Part shown: positions 33,515-62,631 of the stretch, in pieces | How the letters are laid out: every line of letters starts with the position of its first letter | How positions within the stretch are numbered: the stretch's first letter is position 1 | Assembly (NCBI RefSeq): GCF_000382345.1 | Contig: NZ_KB908083.1 | Span: forward strand, 62,001-126,000 | DNA from: Massilia niastensis DSM 21313 | GTDB taxonomy: Bacteria; Pseudomonadota; Gammaproteobacteria; Burkholderiales; Burkholderiaceae_D | Direction of reading: 5' to 3' | Length of the DNA: 64,000 nucleotides | Program-made: the position numbers and the translations under genes | Notes under the pieces: generated by a model | What the model was told of the DNA's origin: nothing | Seen by the model: the letters and a program-made list of their open reading frames with translations, nothing else | Databases searched by the model: none

Positions 33515-34268
33515 GTATGCCTCCAGTGTGAATGTGAGCCGTTGCCCTATGGTCGCATCGGCCAGATTGATTTAGTGCCGCGTCGCCTCGCAGTTGCGTA
33601 AGCGCGTGGCAGGGTCATGTGGTGCGGATGCTGAACGGCAGTTTGACTTCCGGTGACTGCTGAGGTATTGCGCAAATGCCGGTGTCGGCGCCGTTCGCAT
33701 GGAGATCGAACGCGTTGAAGACTGCATTTTTGGGTTCGGTTCTTCGGGCAGGATAGACTAGCGTCTCAAAACGTTAACCTTTGCTCGTTGGGCAAGCGAT
33801 GTTGATTAGGGAGGAGCCGTCCAACAAGGAAGAGCCCCGCTAATGCATCATCATCTACGCCAGAGGCTTTAATCTACCGCTGCCGCCCGAGTAAACATCA
33901 GCGAAGGGAGCGGCATACATCCCTCACGCCGTGGCTTCCCGCTGCCCCAAATATTGCCAGTGCGGGATTTCGAAACAGCGGACCGTAGGCGATAAAGTTC
34001 TATCTGGCTGTCTGTACCGGCACATGTCGTGACGCGTTGGCACTGAATTTGCCTCGAAAGGGTTACCTGTCCTACCCTCGCGAAAGCTGCACAGCGGAAG
34101 TCTTGAACAGCCAAGTCCCAGCGTTTCTTACCCCACAGCCCTAGCTACTACGATACAGGGCTCGTTTCCAGGCTTGCAAAGCGCGAAGGTGCCAAATTGA
34201 ACTGAGCAATGTCATGAATTGCTTTCGGCCAATGAATGCTGATAAGCTTTAGTCTTCTCAGGGAAAAG
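33515..34268. other. Long non-coding stretch separating the two halves of the island
   Basis: About 750 bp without a supportable gene. One 81-codon frame on the minus strand (33869-34114) has no Shine-Dalgarno, no recognisable domain and a composition unlike a protein, so I do not call it. Base composition changes here from GC-rich on the left to AT-rich on the right. It may be the scar of a second insertion or hold the divergent promoter of alpA. Confidence 0.5.
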
Positions 34269-34284
34269 CTGTATTTTTATACAG
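34269..34284. promoter_or_regulatory. LexA (SOS) box upstream of the ABC-3C operon
   Basis: CTGTATTTTTATACAG matches the E. coli LexA consensus CTGTATATATATACAG at 14 of 16 positions, including both CTGT and ACAG half-sites, and is followed by the consensus flank TA. It lies 75 bp before the GTG start. A possible -10 (GATAAT) at 34290-34295 directly follows, so bound LexA would block the promoter. Confidence 0.72.
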
Positions 34285-34359
34285 TATAGGATAATCCCAG
34301 GCGAAAAAAGCGCAACCAATTGTTGTGTCGTCGATCGTTTTTATAAAGATTGGAGCGGT

Positions 34360-35592
34360 GTGAACGTAAAACTCGACTTTGATGCTACGAAGCTTTTTGA
34401 GGCTTTGAAGTACCAGATTCATGTGGCGATTAACTACTGTCATACTCTCGAAAAGCACGACGTGCTATGGATTGAGGTCTTCGGTGACGTGACTGTGGAG
34501 GGGCGTGACCAAGTAGAGATCAAGGACTACGGTGATAGCTTGACCGACGGTCACGAAAATTTTTGGAACACACTCAATAATTGGCTAAAGCCCGATTTTC
34601 GTCACCAACAATATGCCAATCTTATTCTTTTGACGACTCAAGCATATGGCGAGCGTGCGTCGCTAAAGAATTGGGAGCAACTCGATGTCCATGGCCGTCT
34701 GGCTGTACTTAAAACTATTCACGAGGCGGCCGAGGCTAGGTTTGAAAAGGCAAAGCAATCTGCGGATAACGGCGGAAGCAAGCCAAACGATAAGGCCTCT
34801 GACGATGGGAAGATTGAGCGTAAAAGTGTCAATCCATCGGAAGTGCTGAAACTTCAGCGCAAGGTGTTGGCAACGAACGTTCGAGAGTCATTGATGGAAG
34901 CTTTATCTAAGGTCAAGATAATCACGGACCAGCCCGACTTGCTAGGGCTGATTTCCACATACAAAATGCGCTATCTCAAGGGTATCCAACCGCATCGCAT
35001 GGACTCTTTTCTAGATGACCTCTTCGGTTTCATGACCAGCGCTCTTAAGATTACAGGAGGCTGGAGATTTACCGCTGCAGAGTTTGATAAAAAATTCGCT
35101 GAACTTACCGCCCGATACCTTATTGGGTCGTTGAAATTCCCGCGTCTTAACAGCGATGATGTAGAGATCGAAGCCTCCAGAATGGATGTGCGCGATCGCC
35201 TCTATGCCATAAAACTAGATGAAATTGGCAGTGACGAAGAGATCATTCTTCAAGCAACAGCTGACTTGCTTCATGCACAGCAATACATTGCTGAACTGAT
35301 CAAGGACTGCACTACGGCCCAAGAGGACATAGAAGACTACAGCAAGAATCAGCTAAGGATGCATCGATCTAGTCGGTCGAGCTTCATGCGGAAATGTAGT
35401 TCGGCGTGGTCTCATGCTGAGCTACAAAAGGCATCCTGTACTTTTTATGATGAACGTTGCGCCGAAGCTGCTGAGCGCTTTAGTACCTACGATTTCACGC
35501 CTATTGAATTCCGTAATGGAATTTACCATATGTTGGCTGACGAAGAGCCTGCAAGCCCACTTAAGGAGTTTCACTGGAGGCTTTGGAAATGA
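34360..35592 (+). CDS. ABC-3C system effector: PD-(D/E)xK-like nuclease domain + ABC-3C C-terminal domain
   Basis: 410 aa from a GTG start with TGGAG upstream. The first about 110 residues (ALKYQIHVAINYCHTLEKHDVLWIE, then VFGDVTVEGRDQVEIKDYGD) have the layout of a restriction-like fold, with Glu39, Asp43 and the E-x-K pair Glu53/Lys55. This resembles the DUF4297/Cap4-type dsDNA-nuclease domains used as effectors in several immune systems. NLILLTTQAYGERASLKNWEQL follows. The rest, after a charged linker (about 130-155), is all-helical and is taken as the ABC-3C C-terminal adaptor. Gene order with the middle component and ATPase supports this. The stop overlaps the next start in ATGA. AT-rich compared with the host. 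Confidence 0.75.
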   Translation: MNVKLDFDATKLFEALKYQIHVAINYCHTLEKHDVLWIEVFGDVTVEGRDQVEIKDYGDSLTDGHENFWNTLNNWLKPDFRHQQYANLILLTTQAYGERASLKNWEQLDVHGRLAVLKTIHEAAEARFEKAKQSADNGGSKPNDKASDDGKIERKSVNPSEVLKLQRKVLATNVRESLMEALSKVKIITDQPDLLGLISTYKMRYLKGIQPHRMDSFLDDLFGFMTSALKITGGWRFTAAEFDKKFAELTARYLIGSLKFPRLNSDDVEIEASRMDVRDRLYAIKLDEIGSDEEIILQATADLLHAQQYIAELIKDCTTAQEDIEDYSKNQLRMHRSSRSSFMRKCSSAWSHAELQKASCTFYDERCAEAAERFSTYDFTPIEFRNGIYHMLADEEPASPLKEFHWRLWK

Positions 35593-36050
35593 CTAGAGGC
35601 CCTGTTGAACACCTTTTTACGCTTCATCGCTCACCTATTGCATTAGCTCCAGTCATTCATCAGTTCTTCGCCAGCTCTCAGCCTCGCGAAAGAGATTTTC
35701 TGCTCAGCTATTTAGTGCTTCCTATGGTGTTATACCCTGCTATGCAGGAATATCTTCTTACTGTAAGGAAAACTAGCAATCTTCGGACCCTCTGTAAAGA
35801 GCAGTCTAGGCTTGTGGGATTGACTCGAAACGCTCAGCAGTTCAAACCGCTGACTCACGCTGCAATGCTTGTTCTTAAAGCAGAGGGAAAGATTGAAATC
35901 ACGGATGGCTTGACGGTGAAGACAGCAGGCGATGTCACGACAGATAATGCCAACCCAAATCAACTTGAAGCCGCTCGCCGACTGTCTATCATTTTCGCTG
36001 AAGTCGATATTGTTTCCATTTACAGGACGTTAGGATTTAAGTCGCTATGA
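35589..36050 (+). CDS. ABC-3C system middle component
   Basis: 153 aa. It matches the pattern of the three-component ABC system middle component: a helical protein with PIALAPVIHQFFASSQP, LLSYLVLPMVLYPAMQEYL and NAQQFKPLTHAAMLVL, ending in ARRLSIIFAEVDIVSIYRTLGFK. Family members are proposed to connect the ATPase with the effector; no experimental structure is assumed here. GGAGG lies 8 nt before the ATG at 35589. It overlaps both neighbours by ATGA junctions, so the three proteins are probably made in fixed ratio. Confidence 0.82.
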   Translation: MTRGPVEHLFTLHRSPIALAPVIHQFFASSQPRERDFLLSYLVLPMVLYPAMQEYLLTVRKTSNLRTLCKEQSRLVGLTRNAQQFKPLTHAAMLVLKAEGKIEITDGLTVKTAGDVTTDNANPNQLEAARRLSIIFAEVDIVSIYRTLGFKSL

Positions 36051-38050
36051 AATGCTTTCTGCGATACATCGGTGTCGTTGACATCAAAGAGAAGCTTCAC
36101 TATGTACGTTTCGAGTCTGGGCTCAATGTAATCACCGGTAAGTCCTCCACTGGCAAAAGTGCGATCCTTGAAATATTCGATTATTGTCTAGGTAGTACCG
36201 AAGATACTATTCCCGTGGGCAAAATCACTGAGCGAGCCGAGATGTTCTTCATCGCGCTGCAATTTCCCGGTTACTTTCTCGTAGCTGGACGGAAGAAGAA
36301 ATCGGAACGCTGCTTCCTGTTAGAGGTACAAGGTACCGATGCAGATCAACTGTTAAAATTCATCGAGCGACCGAAAGCATTTTTCGATCCCAAACACTAC
36401 ATGCCGCTTTCTGACTTTAAGAAAAGCATCGGGAGGTATTTTGGGATCACTTTGGAAAATGTTGATGAAGATCCATTCCTCAAAGCGGTAGGTCGCAAAA
36501 AATCTCCAACTCCGTCAGTTCGGAGTTTTTTGTCCTTCATGCTTCAGCACCAGAATTTGATTGCTAACAAGCATGCAATCTTTTATCGCTTTGACGAGAA
36601 GGAAAAGCGCGACCAAGCAATCAACCATTTTAAAATCCTCATGGGCCTTGTCGATGAAAACTATTTCGACCTTTATAAGGAATTCGAGGTTGCAAAATAC
36701 GAGCTTAACAAACTCCAGGCACAAATTCCAAAGCAGGCACAGCGTAGAGAAGCGGCTATTGCTTCTTATAATCGCCACTTAACCGATTTCGAGAGCTTGG
36801 CCGGCTTTTCACTTGTGAATGCCACGGCTGAAGAGATATATCTAAAGCCAAAGCTATTTCTAAAATTAATTTCCGAACGCTCGATTAAAATTGATGTTCT
36901 TTCGGATAAAATCGAAATACGCCGGGGGGAACTACAAGCACAGCAATCGAACGCCCTTGTAAAGAAGCGTAAGCTTCAGGGCCAAGTTAGGATGATTAAT
37001 GACTCAATCACATCGGCAACTCAATTTAGCCTGGGCATGATGGCGGAAAGGTTGCCAGTGTCCACGGTGTTATCTGAGGCCTACTGTCCTCTGTGTGAAA
37101 CTCACAGTTCAACTCCTGCTGTTGAAGCCAACAAGCTTGTAGGTGCTATTGAGTGGCTAAACAAGGAGCTCAAACTCTCTTCCTATGCCCGAGAGAGCTT
37201 CGCGGATGAGCGCCGAAAGCTCTTGAATGAACTCAACGTTGTAAATGAGGAGCTTCGTCACATTCAGGCCGATATCCGGCCGTTCGATGAAGAAATCGAA
37301 AGGCTCAAAACTTCAAAATCGATTAATGAACAGGCGACAAAAGCCAAGCTCCGACTGGAGATCGCTATTCAAGATCAGTTGGCTAAACCTGAATCAGAGC
37401 TATCTGAGCAAGAAAAACTTTGGCTCAAAGAGGTGGAACGACTTGCTGGGCTACTCGCTCAATACGACATTAAAGATAGGCTCCATCTATTGAGTCAAGA
37501 TATCGATGCTAAAATGTGCGAGCTCGGCAACCACTTTGACTTTGAGGAAACGTACAAACCTTCGGCACTTCGGTTCGATATAGAGACGTTTGATCTGTGG
37601 TATCAGCAGGATGCTAAAACGCGCGTTTATCTCCGGTCAATGGGAAGTGGTGCGAATTGGCTGTACTCCCACTTGGTCCTATTTATGGCATTACACTACC
37701 AATTCGCCGCGCGTTCAGAGAGTGGCTGTAAAATTCCGCCAATCCTCTTCTTGGATCAACCTACCCAAGTTTACTTCCCGGCGTCTTTAGATGATGCGGA
37801 TGAATTCGACGCTGGGGTGTTGGCCAAGCAAGCTAAGCGCGAGGACGACGTTGATGAAGATATGAAGGCCGTGACCAACATGTTTACTCAACTCGCGAAA
37901 TTTTGCGCAGAGACAGGTAAGCGCACTGGCGTGATCCCTCAAGTCATCGTATCGGACCACGCTGACAAGCTCTTGCTCGGCGAGGGATATAGATTTCAAG
38001 ATTACGTCCGCGCGATCTGGCGCACGCGTGGCTTCATTTCGGAAAATTGA
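36047..38050 (+). CDS. ABC-3C system ATPase (DUF3732-type, Rad50/SMC-like)
   Basis: 667 aa. Walker A GKSSTGKS (31-38) follows an N-terminal strand set (FESGLNVIT). The ABC signature region is SMGSGANWLYSHL (about 531-543) and Walker B is PPILFLDQP (564-572). Between them lie long charged helices (about 200-330 and 360-500), predicted to form a coiled coil, interrupted at its tip by a CPLC motif (Cys347, Cys350) that resembles a Rad50 zinc hook. This is the expected layout of an SMC/Rad50-like DNA-sensing ATPase. The C-terminal part ends with IPQVIVSDHADKLLL, matching a D-loop/H-loop position. Third gene of the operon, coupled by ATGA. Confidence 0.87.
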   Translation: MKCFLRYIGVVDIKEKLHYVRFESGLNVITGKSSTGKSAILEIFDYCLGSTEDTIPVGKITERAEMFFIALQFPGYFLVAGRKKKSERCFLLEVQGTDADQLLKFIERPKAFFDPKHYMPLSDFKKSIGRYFGITLENVDEDPFLKAVGRKKSPTPSVRSFLSFMLQHQNLIANKHAIFYRFDEKEKRDQAINHFKILMGLVDENYFDLYKEFEVAKYELNKLQAQIPKQAQRREAAIASYNRHLTDFESLAGFSLVNATAEEIYLKPKLFLKLISERSIKIDVLSDKIEIRRGELQAQQSNALVKKRKLQGQVRMINDSITSATQFSLGMMAERLPVSTVLSEAYCPLCETHSSTPAVEANKLVGAIEWLNKELKLSSYARESFADERRKLLNELNVVNEELRHIQADIRPFDEEIERLKTSKSINEQATKAKLRLEIAIQDQLAKPESELSEQEKLWLKEVERLAGLLAQYDIKDRLHLLSQDIDAKMCELGNHFDFEETYKPSALRFDIETFDLWYQQDAKTRVYLRSMGSGANWLYSHLVLFMALHYQFAARSESGCKIPPILFLDQPTQVYFPASLDDADEFDAGVLAKQAKREDDVDEDMKAVTNMFTQLAKFCAETGKRTGVIPQVIVSDHADKLLLGEGYRFQDYVRAIWRTRGFISEN

Positions 38051-56946: not shown

Positions 56947-57034
56947 TTGTTGTCTTTCGATGGTTGGGAACCTGTAGAGTACGTTCCCGCCATCCATCGG
57001 AAAACGAATAAATTCGCTTAACAATATGAGATTT

Positions 57035-57247
57035 TCAGTGGGCCCTGGACAGGATCAGCAGCCAGCGGCGGAACAGCAGGATCTCGACGTGGCCTGCGTC
57101 GACGCCGGTGTCGCACTCGATGATCGGGTTCACCGCATAGAAGCGCTTGCGGAAATCACGGGTGACCCGGATCTCGCGGCGGCCGATGCGGGCCATAAAA
57201 GGGACAGGTGCGTATTCCAGGCCGAAGGAGCTGTTCAGAGTGGTCAT
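57035..57247 (-). CDS. Small hypothetical protein
   Basis: 70 aa, with AAGGAAAC as Shine-Dalgarno just before the ATG at 57247, which supports it as a real gene. Basic, with [20 protein letters not shown] in the middle and a hydrophobic stretch [14 protein letters not shown] at the end. No domain recognised. It lies upstream of the sulfate-binding protein gene on the same strand and could be cotranscribed with it; it could equally be governed by the LexA-like boxes 54-88 bp upstream. Confidence 0.65.
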
Positions 57248-57300
57248 GGCGTTTCCTTTTTATCGAGTTGTTGTGCAGTAAGTAAAGAATAGCACAACTA

Positions 57301-57316
57301 CTGTATAAATCTACAG
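57301..57316. promoter_or_regulatory. LexA-like box 1 in the PAP2/small-gene spacer
   Basis: CTGTATAAATCTACAG matches CTGT-N8-ACAG exactly and the E. coli SOS consensus at 14 of 16 positions. Confidence 0.65.
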
Positions 57317-57319
57317 GTA

Positions 57320-57335
57320 CTGTGTGGATATACAG
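57320..57335. promoter_or_regulatory. LexA-like box 2 in the PAP2/small-gene spacer
   Basis: CTGTGTGGATATACAG matches CTGT-N8-ACAG and the E. coli consensus at 13 of 16 positions. It starts 19 bp after box 1; tandem LexA boxes are common in strongly repressed SOS genes. Confidence 0.6.
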
Positions 57336-57384
57336 TAAAAATATTTTTGTGGTTTTTTCGCCAAGCACCCTCATATCGTGCAGC

Positions 57385-58137
57385 ATGCTGAACAATGTCT
57401 TCCCCCGCCTGCACCGCTTCGCCGCGGCGCGCTTCTCGCCCGAGGGCGAATACGGCCTCCACCTGACCGTCGGCGTCGCGCTGCTGGTGGCCGCCATGGC
57501 CGTCTTCGCGCGCCTGGCCGGCGATGTCGTCGCCGGCGCGCCGATCACCCGGCTCGATGTCGAGGTCGCCAACTGGCTGCACGCGCATGCCCACGACAAC
57601 CACCTGTGGCGCCAGGCGCTGCTGGTGCTCACGCACCTGCACAGCACGCCCGGCGTGCTGGCCCTGGCGTGCGCCGCCGGCCTCTGGCTGTACCGGCGCG
57701 GACACCGCTACTGGGTGCTGGCGCTGGGGTCGGCGGTGCCGGGAGGCATGCTGCTGAACGTGGCGCTGAAGGAGACCTTCGAGCGCGCCCGTCCCCATTT
57801 CGAGGAACCCATCGTCAGCCTGGGCACCTACAGCTTCCCCAGCGGCCATACGATGGCGGCCACGGTGCTGTACGGCGTGCTGGCGTGTTACTTCGCGCGC
57901 CGGGCGCGCGGCTGGCCGGGCAGGGTGCTGCCCTTCGTGCTGGCGGCGCTGATGATCTTCTCGGTGGCGTTCTCGCGCATGTACCTCGGCGCGCACTACC
58001 TGTCGGACGTGCTCGCGGCGACGGCCGAAGGCTGCGCCTGGCTGGCCATCTGCCTCTCCGGGGCCACCACCCTGAACCGGCGCCGCATTGCACGCGAGCG
58101 GCGCGCGACCGGTTCGGCCCCGCCCGAAGAAATCTGA
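57385..58137 (+). CDS. PAP2 superfamily phosphatase, membrane-bound
   Basis: 250 aa with about five or six hydrophobic helices. The three phosphatase motifs are present: KETFERARP (K-x6-RP), YSFPSGH, and SRMYLGAHYLSDV (SR-x5-H-x3-D). Such enzymes dephosphorylate lipid phosphates, for example phosphatidic acid or undecaprenyl pyrophosphate, at the periplasmic face. The ATG at 57385 was chosen; the longer GTG start at 57322 lies inside a LexA-like box. The metallophosphoesterase gene starts 11 bp after its stop, so they form a pair. Two LexA-like boxes lie 50-85 bp upstream. Confidence 0.9.
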   Translation: MLNNVFPRLHRFAAARFSPEGEYGLHLTVGVALLVAAMAVFARLAGDVVAGAPITRLDVEVANWLHAHAHDNHLWRQALLVLTHLHSTPGVLALACAAGLWLYRRGHRYWVLALGSAVPGGMLLNVALKETFERARPHFEEPIVSLGTYSFPSGHTMAATVLYGVLACYFARRARGWPGRVLPFVLAALMIFSVAFSRMYLGAHYLSDVLAATAEGCAWLAICLSGATTLNRRRIARERRATGSAPPEEI

Positions 58138-58148
58138 AAGGAGCCACG

Positions 58149-58985
58149 ATGCGTACCCTCGTCCACCTGTCCGACCTGCATTTCGGCCGCGTCGACCATG
58201 TCCTCCTCGGACCCCTGCGCGACCTCATCGAAACGATCGCGCCGGACGTGCTGGTGGTGTCCGGCGACCTGACCCAGCGCGCGCGTCCCGAGCAGTTCGA
58301 GGAGGCGCGCGCCTACCTCGACACCCTGCCCGGGCCGCAGATCATCGTCCCGGGCAACCACGACATCTCGCTGTACAACGTGTTCCGCCGCTTCGTGAAG
58401 CCGCTCGAGCGCTACAAGCGCTACATCACCGAGGACCTCGATCCGATCTACATCGACGACGAGATCGCCGTGCTCGGGGTGAATACCGCCCGCTCGCTGA
58501 CGATCAAGGACGGCAAGGTCAGCAGGGACCAGATCGACGGCATCCGCCAGCGCCTGTCCGGACTGGATCCATCGATCACGCGCATCGTGGTCACCCACCA
58601 TCCGTTCGACCTGCCCGATCATTTCGAGGAGCGCGACCTGGTCGACCGCGCGCCGATGGCGATGAAGGTGTTCTCGGAATCGGGCGTCGACATCCTGATG
58701 GCCGGCCACATGCATGCCAGCCATGCCGGCAGCACGGCGGAGCGCTACCAGATGGGCGAATACGCCGCACTGGTGGTCCAGGCCGGCACCGCGACCTCGA
58801 CCCGCGGGCGCGGCGAGGTGAATTCGTTCAACGTGGTGCGGGTCGAGCCGATGAAGGTGGAGATCGACCGCTACGGCTGGAACGTCATCCACAACAGCTT
58901 CCAGCTGGTCGCCACCGACAAGTTCATGCGCAGCGGTAACGTCTGGACCGAGCACATCGACGGCATGCTGGCGGCCGGCCTGTAG
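58149..58985 (+). CDS. Calcineurin-like metallophosphoesterase
   Basis: 278 aa, no signal peptide. All metal-binding motifs of the family are present: LSDLHFG (D-x-H), VSGDLTQRA (GD), PGNHDISLYN (GNHD), THHPFD and GHMHASHAG (GH-x-H). These enzymes cleave phosphomonoesters or diesters, including cyclic nucleotides and lipid headgroups; the substrate cannot be told from sequence. AAAGGAG lies just before the ATG. It follows the PAP2 gene closely and converges on the cardiolipin synthase gene (14 bp between stops). Confidence 0.93.
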   Translation: MRTLVHLSDLHFGRVDHVLLGPLRDLIETIAPDVLVVSGDLTQRARPEQFEEARAYLDTLPGPQIIVPGNHDISLYNVFRRFVKPLERYKRYITEDLDPIYIDDEIAVLGVNTARSLTIKDGKVSRDQIDGIRQRLSGLDPSITRIVVTHHPFDLPDHFEERDLVDRAPMAMKVFSESGVDILMAGHMHASHAGSTAERYQMGEYAALVVQAGTATSTRGRGEVNSFNVVRVEPMKVEIDRYGWNVIHNSFQLVATDKFMRSGNVWTEHIDGMLAAGL

Positions 58986-58999
58986 CGGGCCGCCTCCGC

Positions 59000-60388
59000 T
59001 CAGATCCAGTATTCGGTCAGGCGCGACAGCATCTCGCGCAGCCGGTCGCTCCACGGCCGGCGGCGCCATTCCTCCAGGGTCACCGGCTTCGAGTCGCGCA
59101 GGTCTTCGTTGAACGCGGCTTCCATGTCGCGCCCGAAGGCCGGGTCGAGCACCACCACGTTGATCTCGTAGTTGTGGATGAAGCTGCGGCGGTCGATGTT
59201 GGCCGAGCCGATGGTCGACCACATGCCGTCGATCACGGCCGTCTTCGCGTGCAGCACCGCCACCTGCAGCTGGTAGATGCGCACCCCGCCCTTGAGCAGC
59301 TGCTCATAGAAGGCCTGGCCGGCATACATGATGAAATCGTGGTCCGACACGCCCGGCAGCACCAGCTTGACGTCGACCCCGCGTTTCGCCGCGGCGATCA
59401 GGGCGTCGACGGTCTGCTGGTCGGGCACGAAGTAGGCCGAGGTGATGTGGATCGACTTCCTGGCCTCGTTCATCGCGACCAGCAGCGATTTATAGATCTC
59501 GGAGTCGCGCTCCGGGCTGGTGGCCAGCACCCGCACCACCTTGTCGCCCATCGGCGCCAGGCGCGGGAAGTAGTCGGCCTTGGGCAGCTCGCCCGCGTCC
59601 TGGTGCACCCAGTTGTCGACGAAGGCCCATTGCAGCGCCGCCACCGCCGGTCCTTCGATCTTGATGTGGGTGTCGCGCCAGCCGACCTTGCTGCTGTCGG
59701 CGGTGCTGGCCTTCATGCGCGAGCGGAACAGCGAGCTGTTGGCATAGGTGCTGCTGATGTTGATGCCGCCGGTGAAGGCGACCTTGCCGTCGACCACCAT
59801 GATCTTGCGGTGGTCGCGGTTGTTCAGCTGCCATTTGCCGGGGCGCTTGGCGGGATTGACCGGGTTGAAGATCAGGACATTGATCCCGGCCGCGCGCAGC
59901 TTGTCGAAGAATTCGGACGGCGTCGCCAGGGTGCCGACGCCGTCGGCGATCACGTTCACGACCACGCCCTGGCGGCGTTTCTCCATCAGCAGCTCGGCGA
60001 ACTGCAGGCCGATCGGGTCCTGGTCGAAGATATAGGTCTCCAGGTTGATCGAACCGGTGGCGCCCTGCGCCGCCGCCATCATCTCGCGCATGGTCGCCGG
60101 GCCGTCGAACAGCAGGGAGACCTTGTTGCCGGCGATCAGGGGGACGCCGGTGGCCTGTTCTTCCAGCACCGCCAGCTGCTTCAGGTCGGGAGTCGCGTTG
60201 GCCCAGCGCCGCGCCAGCAGTTCCGCGGCCTGCTTCTGCCGGAGCGCACCCTGCTGGGTGGCGACGGTCGGGGTGGCCTTGGCGGGATTCTCCGGCAGGC
60301 GCTCGGCATCGGGCAGGGTCTTGCACGAGGCGACGATGCAGACGAAGGCCAGGAGGGAGAACCAGGCAGTCGGGCGGAGGTTTTTCAT
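59000..60388 (-). CDS. Cardiolipin synthase-like phospholipase D family lipoprotein
   Basis: 462 aa. A lipoprotein signal (AWFSLLAFVCIVASC) with lipobox VASC and Cys22 is present. Two HKD motifs form one active site: HRKIMVVDG (His193, Lys195, Asp200) and HAKTAVIDGMWSTIGSANID (His380, Lys382, Asp387). Relatives are cardiolipin synthases of the ClsA/ClsC type, but the lipid anchor in place of transmembrane helices is less common and may place it at the outer leaflet or outer membrane. The ATG overlaps the stop of the upstream recombinase gene (ATGA), so the two are coupled. Confidence 0.9.
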   Translation of the reverse strand: MKNLRPTAWFSLLAFVCIVASCKTLPDAERLPENPAKATPTVATQQGALRQKQAAELLARRWANATPDLKQLAVLEEQATGVPLIAGNKVSLLFDGPATMREMMAAAQGATGSINLETYIFDQDPIGLQFAELLMEKRRQGVVVNVIADGVGTLATPSEFFDKLRAAGINVLIFNPVNPAKRPGKWQLNNRDHRKIMVVDGKVAFTGGINISSTYANSSLFRSRMKASTADSSKVGWRDTHIKIEGPAVAALQWAFVDNWVHQDAGELPKADYFPRLAPMGDKVVRVLATSPERDSEIYKSLLVAMNEARKSIHITSAYFVPDQQTVDALIAAAKRGVDVKLVLPGVSDHDFIMYAGQAFYEQLLKGGVRIYQLQVAVLHAKTAVIDGMWSTIGSANIDRRSFIHNYEINVVVLDPAFGRDMEAAFNEDLRDSKPVTLEEWRRRPWSDRLREMLSRLTEYWI

Positions 60389-62493
60389 TTCAGTCCCTTC
60401 AGGGGCAAGGTATCGGGCGGCGGCTGCGGCTGGCCTTTCGGCCCGATGAAGAAGTCGACCGGCGCCGACAGGAAGCGGCGGCCGAGTGCGCGCAGCAGCA
60501 GGATGCCGCGCTTGAAGCGGATCTTGCGGGCGCGCAGCGCCACCCACAGCGCCAGCCCGAAGCTGACCAGCAGGTTGACGGCGCCGATCAGGACCACGCC
60601 CAGCGCCGCATTGCCCAGCTGTACAGCCGTGAGCTGGTAGTCGAGGCCGACCAGGGCGGTGGCGAAGTTGGCGGTCGAGAAGGTGATGTGGCGGATGTCG
60701 AGCGGCAGCCCGAGCAGGTAGCCGACGGTGCCGGTGGTGCCGAGCAGGATGCCGAAGAAGAAGTTCCCCATCAGGCCGCCCAGGTTGTCCTCGATGTACT
60801 GCGACAGCCGTCCCAGCCGCTCGGCGCCGAGCACGCGGCGCAGCCCGCGCAGCTGGCGCACGCGCTGGCCCATGCGGGTGTACAGGGCCTTGTTGTCGTA
60901 GTAGCCCGAGATCAGGCCGGCGACGAACAGCCATACGCCGGCGATCGCGGCATAGTACAGGGCCAGGCTGTGGATCGGGTCGATGTCGGCCAGCAGGTGG
61001 TGCGCCTTTTCCGGATCGACCAGGTGGCGGCCGGTGGCGTAGAACCAGGCTTCGGCGATGCCCCAGGCGACCGGGAAGGCGACCAGCACGTTGCCGAGCA
61101 CGGCGGCGACCTGGGTGCGGAACACCTTGTTCACCAGCTCGGCCATCCGCTCGACGTCGACGCCGCGCCCGTTTTCGCCGCGGTGCAGCGAGGCGGCGAT
61201 GCGCTGGGCCGTCATGGCCGGCTGCTTGGTGGCGATGGTGAACTGCATCAGGTGCACGAACACGAAGCCGAGCGAATAGTTCATGCTGAACAGGAAGGCC
61301 TCGACCAGCGGCGGGCTGCGCAGGGTGCCGAGCAGGATCTTGAACAGCGCCATGAAGCCGACGATGAAGCCGGCCCCGGAGGCCCGGGCGAACATCTGGC
61401 GCAGCTCCTTGCGGCTTTCGGCGATGTAGTGCTCGCCGGTGCGGCTGGCGTTTTCCGTCATGTTGCGCGCCAACAGGTCGACGTTGTCGCGCACCAGGCC
61501 ACGGACCTGGTACTTGGTGTTGTGCGCCTCGATCAGTTCCTGGGCCAGGTCGACCGCGGCCAGGCGGCGGTCGCTGTCGGCCGGCTCCTGCGGGCGCGCC
61601 GTGCTGCCGGCCAGCGCGTCCAGGTCCACCGTGGCGGCGGACGGCAGCTCGCCGCTGAGGTCGACCAGGTAGAGCAGCTTGTGCAGGCGGTCGATGCTCT
61701 GCTGGAGTGCGACCAGCAGGTAGGTGAGGGCGACGCTGGTGCCGGAGCTCAAGGCGCCGCGGCGGATCTTGAGCACCACTTCCTGGCACTGGTCGAGCAT
61801 CACCAGCAGGTGGCGCGCATCCTCGGGCTGGGCGATCTTCCCCCCGAGATAGCGCGCGTATTCGTCGAGGTAGCGGTTGACCTCGATGTTCTGCATCAGG
61901 AAGGGCGAATCGAAGTCCTCGATCTCGCTGTAGCTGTGCACCAGGCGCGGCTCCAGGCCCAGGGCGCAGATGCGGCAGGACAGGGTGCGGATCGCATCGA
62001 GCAGGCCCATCAGGGTGACCTGGCGCGCGCGGTCGGGCGTGGCGTCGTCCGGCGGCGGGGCGTCGGCGACGATGTCGAACAATTCCATCCAGTCGGCGTT
62101 CGGCACCAGCCGGATCCATTCGTAGTCGTCCTCGCGGTACAGCACCTGGTCGAGGGCGTCGGACAGGTACAGGTCGTTCAGGGCGGGCGGCAGGAAACGG
62201 TAGGTGACGCGGCGCTTCAGCTCGGTGACGAAGCCGTCGTTCGAGAGGATGCCGATATCGCTGTACAGGCTGGTATGGCGGCGGGTCTCGAGCAGGGCGG
62301 TGACATAGCGGCGCAGCTTCCAGGCATGCACAGGGTTCCCCTTGAGCAGCTGGATCAGCGTGCGGACCGCCTGCGCGGGATCGTCCGGCTGCTGCCACAC
62401 CCAGCGCTGGCGCGGCCGCAGGCGCTCGACCAGCTGGACCAGGAGGTCGATGTTGTCACTGTTCGGATCGATTTGTTCGAGAATTGCTAGCAT
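60385..62493 (-). CDS. Gcr-type 'site-specific recombinase' family membrane protein
   Basis: 702 aa. Recognised as the SpecificRecomb/Gcr family: the N-terminal soluble region is helical (LVQLVERLRPRQRWVWQQPDD, QTLIQLLKGNPVHAW-type), and the C-terminal half (about 365-660) has multiple hydrophobic segments (GAGFIVGFMALFKILLG, YSLGFVFVHLMQF, ALYYAAIAGVWLFVAGLISGYYDNKA). The family name comes from a gonococcal gene; the domain is not a known recombinase fold, so that annotation should be treated with caution. No Shine-Dalgarno is visible before the ATG at 62493. A CTGT-N8-ACAG box lies 13 bp upstream of it. First gene of a pair with the cardiolipin synthase-like gene. Confidence 0.88.
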   Translation of the reverse strand: MLAILEQIDPNSDNIDLLVQLVERLRPRQRWVWQQPDDPAQAVRTLIQLLKGNPVHAWKLRRYVTALLETRRHTSLYSDIGILSNDGFVTELKRRVTYRFLPPALNDLYLSDALDQVLYREDDYEWIRLVPNADWMELFDIVADAPPPDDATPDRARQVTLMGLLDAIRTLSCRICALGLEPRLVHSYSEIEDFDSPFLMQNIEVNRYLDEYARYLGGKIAQPEDARHLLVMLDQCQEVVLKIRRGALSSGTSVALTYLLVALQQSIDRLHKLLYLVDLSGELPSAATVDLDALAGSTARPQEPADSDRRLAAVDLAQELIEAHNTKYQVRGLVRDNVDLLARNMTENASRTGEHYIAESRKELRQMFARASGAGFIVGFMALFKILLGTLRSPPLVEAFLFSMNYSLGFVFVHLMQFTIATKQPAMTAQRIAASLHRGENGRGVDVERMAELVNKVFRTQVAAVLGNVLVAFPVAWGIAEAWFYATGRHLVDPEKAHHLLADIDPIHSLALYYAAIAGVWLFVAGLISGYYDNKALYTRMGQRVRQLRGLRRVLGAERLGRLSQYIEDNLGGLMGNFFFGILLGTTGTVGYLLGLPLDIRHITFSTANFATALVGLDYQLTAVQLGNAALGVVLIGAVNLLVSFGLALWVALRARKIRFKRGILLLRALGRRFLSAPVDFFIGPKGQPQPPPDTLPLKGLK

Positions 62494-62505
62494 GGACAAC
62501 AACTA

Positions 62506-62521
62506 CTGTGGAAAGCTACAG
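62506..62521. promoter_or_regulatory. LexA-like box upstream of the Gcr-family gene
   Basis: CTGTGGAAAGCTACAG fits CTGT-N8-ACAG but matches the full E. coli consensus at only 11 of 16 positions. It lies 13 bp from the minus-strand start and 110 bp upstream of the plus-strand aminotransferase. It shares the ACAACTACTGT flank with box 1 at 57301. Confidence 0.5.
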
Positions 62522-62631
62522 TGTACGCGAGGGACACGGTCAACATGGTTCGGCAACGAACAGTATGCGAACTGGACGGCAAGGGGGCGGAGCCGATACA
62601 CTGGTTTGGTTCTGTTTCGACCGAGGATGAG

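Follow-up and report, generated by a model that had tools for sequence, protein, structure and literature searches.

We analyzed a 64-kb window of the draft genome of Massilia niastensis DSM 21313 (the whole stretch of DNA under study, G000:C8:62001-126000; the assembly totals 6.59 Mb in 139 contigs), and describe here a region at 57.3 kb in which a closely spaced pair of LexA boxes stands between two divergent genes. The minus strand carries an open reading frame (ORF) of 70 amino acids (aa) at 57035..57247, with its ATG at 57247 and a Shine–Dalgarno-like AAGGAAAC at 57251-57258, which we presume to be the main target of the boxes; the first-pass annotation of this DNA had overlooked it, and the twin boxes overlap its promoter region. 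Facing the other way, on the plus strand, are a PAP2-family phosphatase gene (57385..58137, PF01569, E=4.2e-23) and, downstream of it, a metallophosphoesterase gene (MPE; 58149..58985, PF00149, E=5.2e-16). The conserved proximal box, 51 bases from the ATG of the 70-aa ORF, spans 57299..57318 (core 57301-57316), and the distal box, at a spacing of 19 bp, spans 57318..57337 (core 57320-57335), neither being assigned to a strand. An extended −10 element of the TGnTAnnnT type (TGCTATTCT, 57286..57294, minus strand) is the presumed promoter of the ORF.

Exact matches to CTGT-N8-ACAG occur in the window at 57301-57316, 57320-57335, and 62506-62521, confirming the three boxes first reported, with a fourth at 34269; this count of 4 compares with an expectation of 0.59, and 4 or more sites were seen in 0/100 dinucleotide shuffles. 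Across the genome, the bare pattern is mildly enriched (45 sites vs 30 for a reversed control pattern), such that most bare matches mean little, and boxes were therefore scored with a matrix. This 20-bp matrix was trained on seven of the genome's SOS-type promoters, with the boxes of the window excluded: those of recA (one mismatch), lexA, imuA, dnaE2, dinB, ruvC, and a FAN1-like nuclease gene (training scores 20.9-33.2; imuA and dnaE2 were named by position and by their IMS and DNA_pol3_alpha domains, and the FAN1-like gene was classed as SOS on its box). On this scale, the proximal and distal boxes score 25.0 and 26.7, the box at 34269 scores 26.8, and that at 62506 scores 18.3. Counted by eye against the LexA-box consensus CTGTATATATATACAG, the boxes at 57301, 57320, and 62506 agree at 14, 13, and 11 of 16 positions, in keeping with the earlier count of 13-14 for two of them. 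The genome-wide search against SOS reference promoters that had been proposed at that stage found the E. coli-type CTGT-N8-ACAG at lexA, imuA, dnaE2, dinB, and ruvC, and a copy with one mismatch at recA; the suggestion that the recA and lexA promoters of this species might use a different motif fails because these genes carry the same one. To judge from these promoters, the organism uses an E. coli-type LexA motif.

Conservation ties the boxes to the 70-aa ORF. A single scan of public genomes for close relatives, using an alignment of the 70-aa ORF as the query, yielded a set of 63 contigs (Massilia, Telluria, Duganella, one Herbaspirillum, and binned records; two M. aurea assemblies are included), of which the named members are mostly Massilia and are placed by the NCBI taxonomy in the Oxalobacteraceae. 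A LexA box lies upstream of the ORF in 63/63 contigs, ruling out chance as the origin of the twin boxes, and the pair is present in 62/63, with a spacing of 19 bp in 56 and 18 bp in 6; the 857,117 bases of these contigs hold just one further site above threshold. Both boxes and the ORF are likewise found at 30/30 PAP2 loci of the genus (the best 30 of 45 matching genomes, own genome included; gcr loci, discussed below, were compared on the same footing). All of the contigs have an extended −10 element pointing at the ORF, at most 16 bases past the proximal box, and none has one on the PAP2 side (63/63 vs 0/63), by a pattern that was picked after the sequences had been inspected.

The same arrangement extends beyond the close relatives. 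In a cross-genus set of 64 loci, most of them outside the genus and including two repeats (L117/L200 and L120/L209) and thus 62 distinct loci, partly from the same genomes as the 63 contigs (L220/L169, L223/L160), a box lies within 400 bases of the ORF at 60/62 distinct loci in 22 genera by tally; box pairs occur in 25/64 rows. What flanks the ORF on the far side of the boxes varies across genera: PAP2 at many loci, imuA at L120, L211, and L212, dinB at L227 and L233, and unrelated genes elsewhere. Read from these alignments, the conserved unit is the box or boxes, the promoter, and the 70-aa ORF, with PAP2 a variable neighbor. A box between divergent genes is best assigned in this way, by the joint conservation of box, promoter, and ORF, and not to the larger neighbor.

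Substitution patterns indicate that the ORF is under purifying selection (58 coding sequences: mean pS 0.443, pN 0.089, pN/pS 0.20), on which ground we reject a non-coding reading, and on the excess of pS over pN it is very likely translated. It was found in 211/294 sampled genomes of the family, representing 24/44 genera, and not outside it: the 12 matches among 399 genomes of the order, obtained with a narrow and a wider profile and from at most 14-15 scored candidates per genome, all fall in the family of the window. Members seen are 70-82 aa long; the window copy carries a net charge of +4, and its mean hydropathy over 19 residues peaks at 1.06, with no stretch of transmembrane character. 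Scans against Pfam, NCBIfam, and PADLOC gave no match to any curated family, a scan of the family against PHROGs gave only weak hits from one or few divergent members (best E 0.0023), and a sequence search of the PDB gave a best E of 0.44; of 27 IMG/VR stretches scanned for the ORF none was related, and a comparison of the window's protein with plasmids gave no match. An AlphaFold model using 58 close homologues is poor (pLDDT 56, pTM 0.35), and all-beta in outline. In two genomes, G479 and G443, the family is present twice, the additional copy (L242 and L243, respectively) being divergent; the L242 copy has a LexA box of its own, and the L243 copy has an internal stop and no LexA box.

Taken with its position over the presumed promoter, this pattern of retention makes it highly probable that the twin boxes place the 70-aa ORF under LexA control, and they are very likely a tandem LexA operator with the divergent ORF as its main target and PAP2 mainly a neighbor. 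LexA bound at the proximal box would sit on the spacer/−35 part of this presumed extended −10 promoter, and a further box 18-19 bp upstream is expected to make repression tighter. Upon DNA damage, RecA-stimulated self-cleavage of LexA would release both boxes and free the promoter, such that the small 70-aa protein would be produced in a burst. Both LexA binding and damage induction at the twin boxes we infer from the anatomy of the site and the established mechanism of LexA. The boxes share their motif with lexA, recA, and further SOS genes of this genome and are arranged in tandem over a promoter, a likeness to the E. coli-type LexA/SOS regulon, in which tandem LexA operators are known at lexA and the colicin genes; the difference lies in the target, here an orphan protein found, among the genomes sampled, in one Burkholderiales family only.

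It is this orphan protein on which the interest of the locus rests. SOS effectors vary by clade and are often too small for annotation, and the small, clade-restricted, SOS-controlled division inhibitors YneA, SosA, SulA, and SidA are among the closest known parallels. Because lineage-specific small SOS division inhibitors are a known theme, we place an effector role ahead of an accessory one, and tentatively favor a protein that would restrain division or replication during repair; its narrower form, an Oxalobacteraceae SOS checkpoint effector acting as a soluble division or replication inhibitor in the place of SulA, and silenced by a tandem operator since its product halts growth, is a more doubtful proposition. 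The likeness to these inhibitors is that the ORF is small and clade-restricted and appears to be SOS-controlled. It differs from SulA, however, in having no PF03846 match, either in the ORF or in 26 aligned family members, and we reject its identification as SulA on this ground; from the YneA/SosA/SidA type it differs in lacking their single transmembrane helix. A profile search of this genome for the SulA domain gave no match. Such a match does occur in 23 of the 294 family genomes, there in long frames (247-390 aa); three of the family's ImuA proteins weakly match SulA models, and given this and their length, the 23 frames may be ImuA. A lead of another kind comes from the divergent member L122, which matches PHROG 4140 (phage proteins; E=0.0023), although no other scanned member does so and a tblastn search with L122 finds no phage record. 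Nearly as likely as the checkpoint role, if still somewhat doubtful in itself, is an accessory to translesion synthesis or to RecA/LexA feedback, DinI- or ImuA-like; the divergent arrangement beside imuA (L120, L211, L212) or dinB (L227, L233) in some genera, the net charge of +4, and the lack of a transmembrane stretch are all in accord with this, whereas repair genes are not adjacent at most loci seen and no Pfam or NCBIfam model matches. With respect to earlier work, capped searches of a mainly open-access collection of papers gave no SOS study of the family, nor one of Massilia (LexA and SOS); PMC7739468 names the Oxalobacteraceae in an HrpB/X section. Sequence identifies the protein, along with its LexA box, in 22 or more genera, which makes it a direct target for knockout.

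Several observations weigh against the reading of a LexA-controlled effector. The ORF is missing from 83/294 family genomes; two cross-genus loci, L241 (a weak partial match) and L243 (a stop inside), have no LexA box, and at L119, L120, L212, and L238 the box lies 160-360 bases upstream of the ORF. The promoter pattern was defined post hoc from the sequences, and a scan of 57000-57500 for a plain sigma-70 consensus and terminators found nothing, a result that fits an extended −10 promoter lacking a good −35 yet lends it no support. The protein has no curated family and a poor model (pLDDT 56), for which reason its action is a guess, and a divergent SulA would possibly be compatible with the null profile result. 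Lastly, a conserved A-tract element (TTGGCGAAAAAACCACA, 57348..57364, letters on the minus strand) sits between the twin boxes and PAP2, and a loose version of its pattern is found in 49/56 contigs in which PAP2 is adjacent vs 1/7 of the others; on this difference the element may belong to PAP2, and the pattern hints at some regulation of PAP2 in this genome. The A-tract may be part of the PAP2 promoter or a site for another factor, and variants of it are also seen in other genera, at some loci that lack PAP2.

These last points bear on whether the operator is shared, LexA repressing both the 70-aa ORF and PAP2 (with MPE downstream) in Massilia and its kin. Such an arrangement would be compatible with a main role at the ORF and is quite possible, though short of probable. 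At most 300 bp separate PAP2 from the boxes in 56/63 contigs, the gene is adjacent at many loci of other genera, the distal box is some 50 bases from the PAP2 ATG, and the A-tract is on the PAP2 side chiefly where PAP2 is adjacent; set against this are the absence of an extended −10 on that side and the behavior of the boxes where the two genes part company. In six contigs (L141, L148, L151, L152, L157, and L159), PAP2 is displaced from the boxes by 0.8-4.7 kb, and a seventh, L169, yielded no PAP2; each of the seven keeps the box pair beside the 70-aa ORF, and none of the six displaced PAP2 genes has a box (best score 2.3). Box pairs also occur without PAP2 at L190, L191, and L222, as at L169, and single boxes occur with PAP2 at L206-L208. 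PAP2 as the sole target is thereby rejected, the boxes following the ORF when PAP2 is displaced and the extended −10 pointing in no contig toward PAP2.

The tandem operator of the 70-aa ORF also has to be set against the proposal made in the first-pass annotation, namely a functional SOS-controlled envelope-lipid cluster (PAP2, MPE, gcr, and a cardiolipin synthase) serving damage-induced membrane remodeling. Its gene arrangement was correctly described, as two convergent pairs: PAP2 and MPE on the plus strand, and on the minus strand gcr (60385..62493, a “SpecificRecomb” protein, PF10136, E=1.6e-223) with a phospholipase D/cardiolipin synthase-like gene (CLS; 59000..60388, PF13091, E=1.9e-45). 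The boxes had further been placed in gene starts. That at 62506 is 10 bases ahead of gcr; for PAP2, alignment with relatives points to a start at ATG 57385 and not at GTG 57322, which falls within a box. In favor of the cluster, the outer ends of the two gene pairs carry three boxes, and the block is syntenic in many relatives; against it are the assignment of the twin boxes, which favors the 70-aa ORF, and the evolutionary record of the gcr box. The latter (62504..62523, no strand; weak and probably private to this genome) overlaps a conserved TACACT resembling a −10. In 29 relatives there is no site above 12 near the gcr start (the 15.2 site at L052, being 3.5 kb from the start of the gcr match, was excluded as a gcr box), and in the 48/63 contigs that hold the gcr start and some upstream sequence none there exceeds 15. 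Nor did the matrix scan of the window find a LexA box beside MPE or CLS. We consequently regard the lipid cluster as highly improbable: the part of the proposal that is strongly supported by sequence is SOS/LexA control at 57.3 kb, for which we take the 70-aa ORF as the main target, and the lipid cluster itself is unsupported.

The gcr box taken by itself could instead be a functional LexA site that arose recently in this strain and represses gcr and CLS by covering the −10 region. It is an exact CTGT-N8-ACAG directly before the start codon, and a GTACACT...GCTTTC with the look of a half-box is common to most of the 14 nearest relatives at this place, completed only in this genome among those 15; yet its 18.3 is the weakest among sites of the accepted type (training 20.9-33.2), and no site near the gcr start in those 14 relatives scores above 9.6. 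A young functional site is on balance unlikely, and the box is probably private or a product of chance. As a conserved LexA target, gcr is rejected, given the lack of a box near its start in the 29 relatives.

LexA boxes were also seen elsewhere in the window and genome. The fourth box of the window (score 26.8; region 34267-38050) is followed after 73 bases by an ABC-3C operon of three genes, called Lamassu by PADLOC (LmuA, E=4.4e-44; LmuC, 2.7e-10; LmuB, 3.4e-116), which is possibly an SOS-controlled defense against phages or plasmids; among 30 LmuA loci of the family that were fetched, own included, a box lies ≤250 bases upstream of the match in 3 (the window's own L263, with L259 and L283). 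One of the strongest boxes of the genome (33.5) is 17 bases before the start of a tyrosine recombinase/integrase gene (L022:1501-2699, G000:C21), and a box of equal score is upstream of a PA0069-family radical SAM gene (L013:1501-2702). A FAN1-like VRR-NUC nuclease gene (L030:1477-3015) has a box of 30.4 at its start, and an NAD kinase gene (L018:514-1516) has an upstream box of 24.0; recN often follows nadK. A box of 26.1 (L006:1501-1516, G000:C7) is 300 bases upstream of a MotA/TolQ/ExbB-type gene, and an unannotated small gene might be situated between the two.

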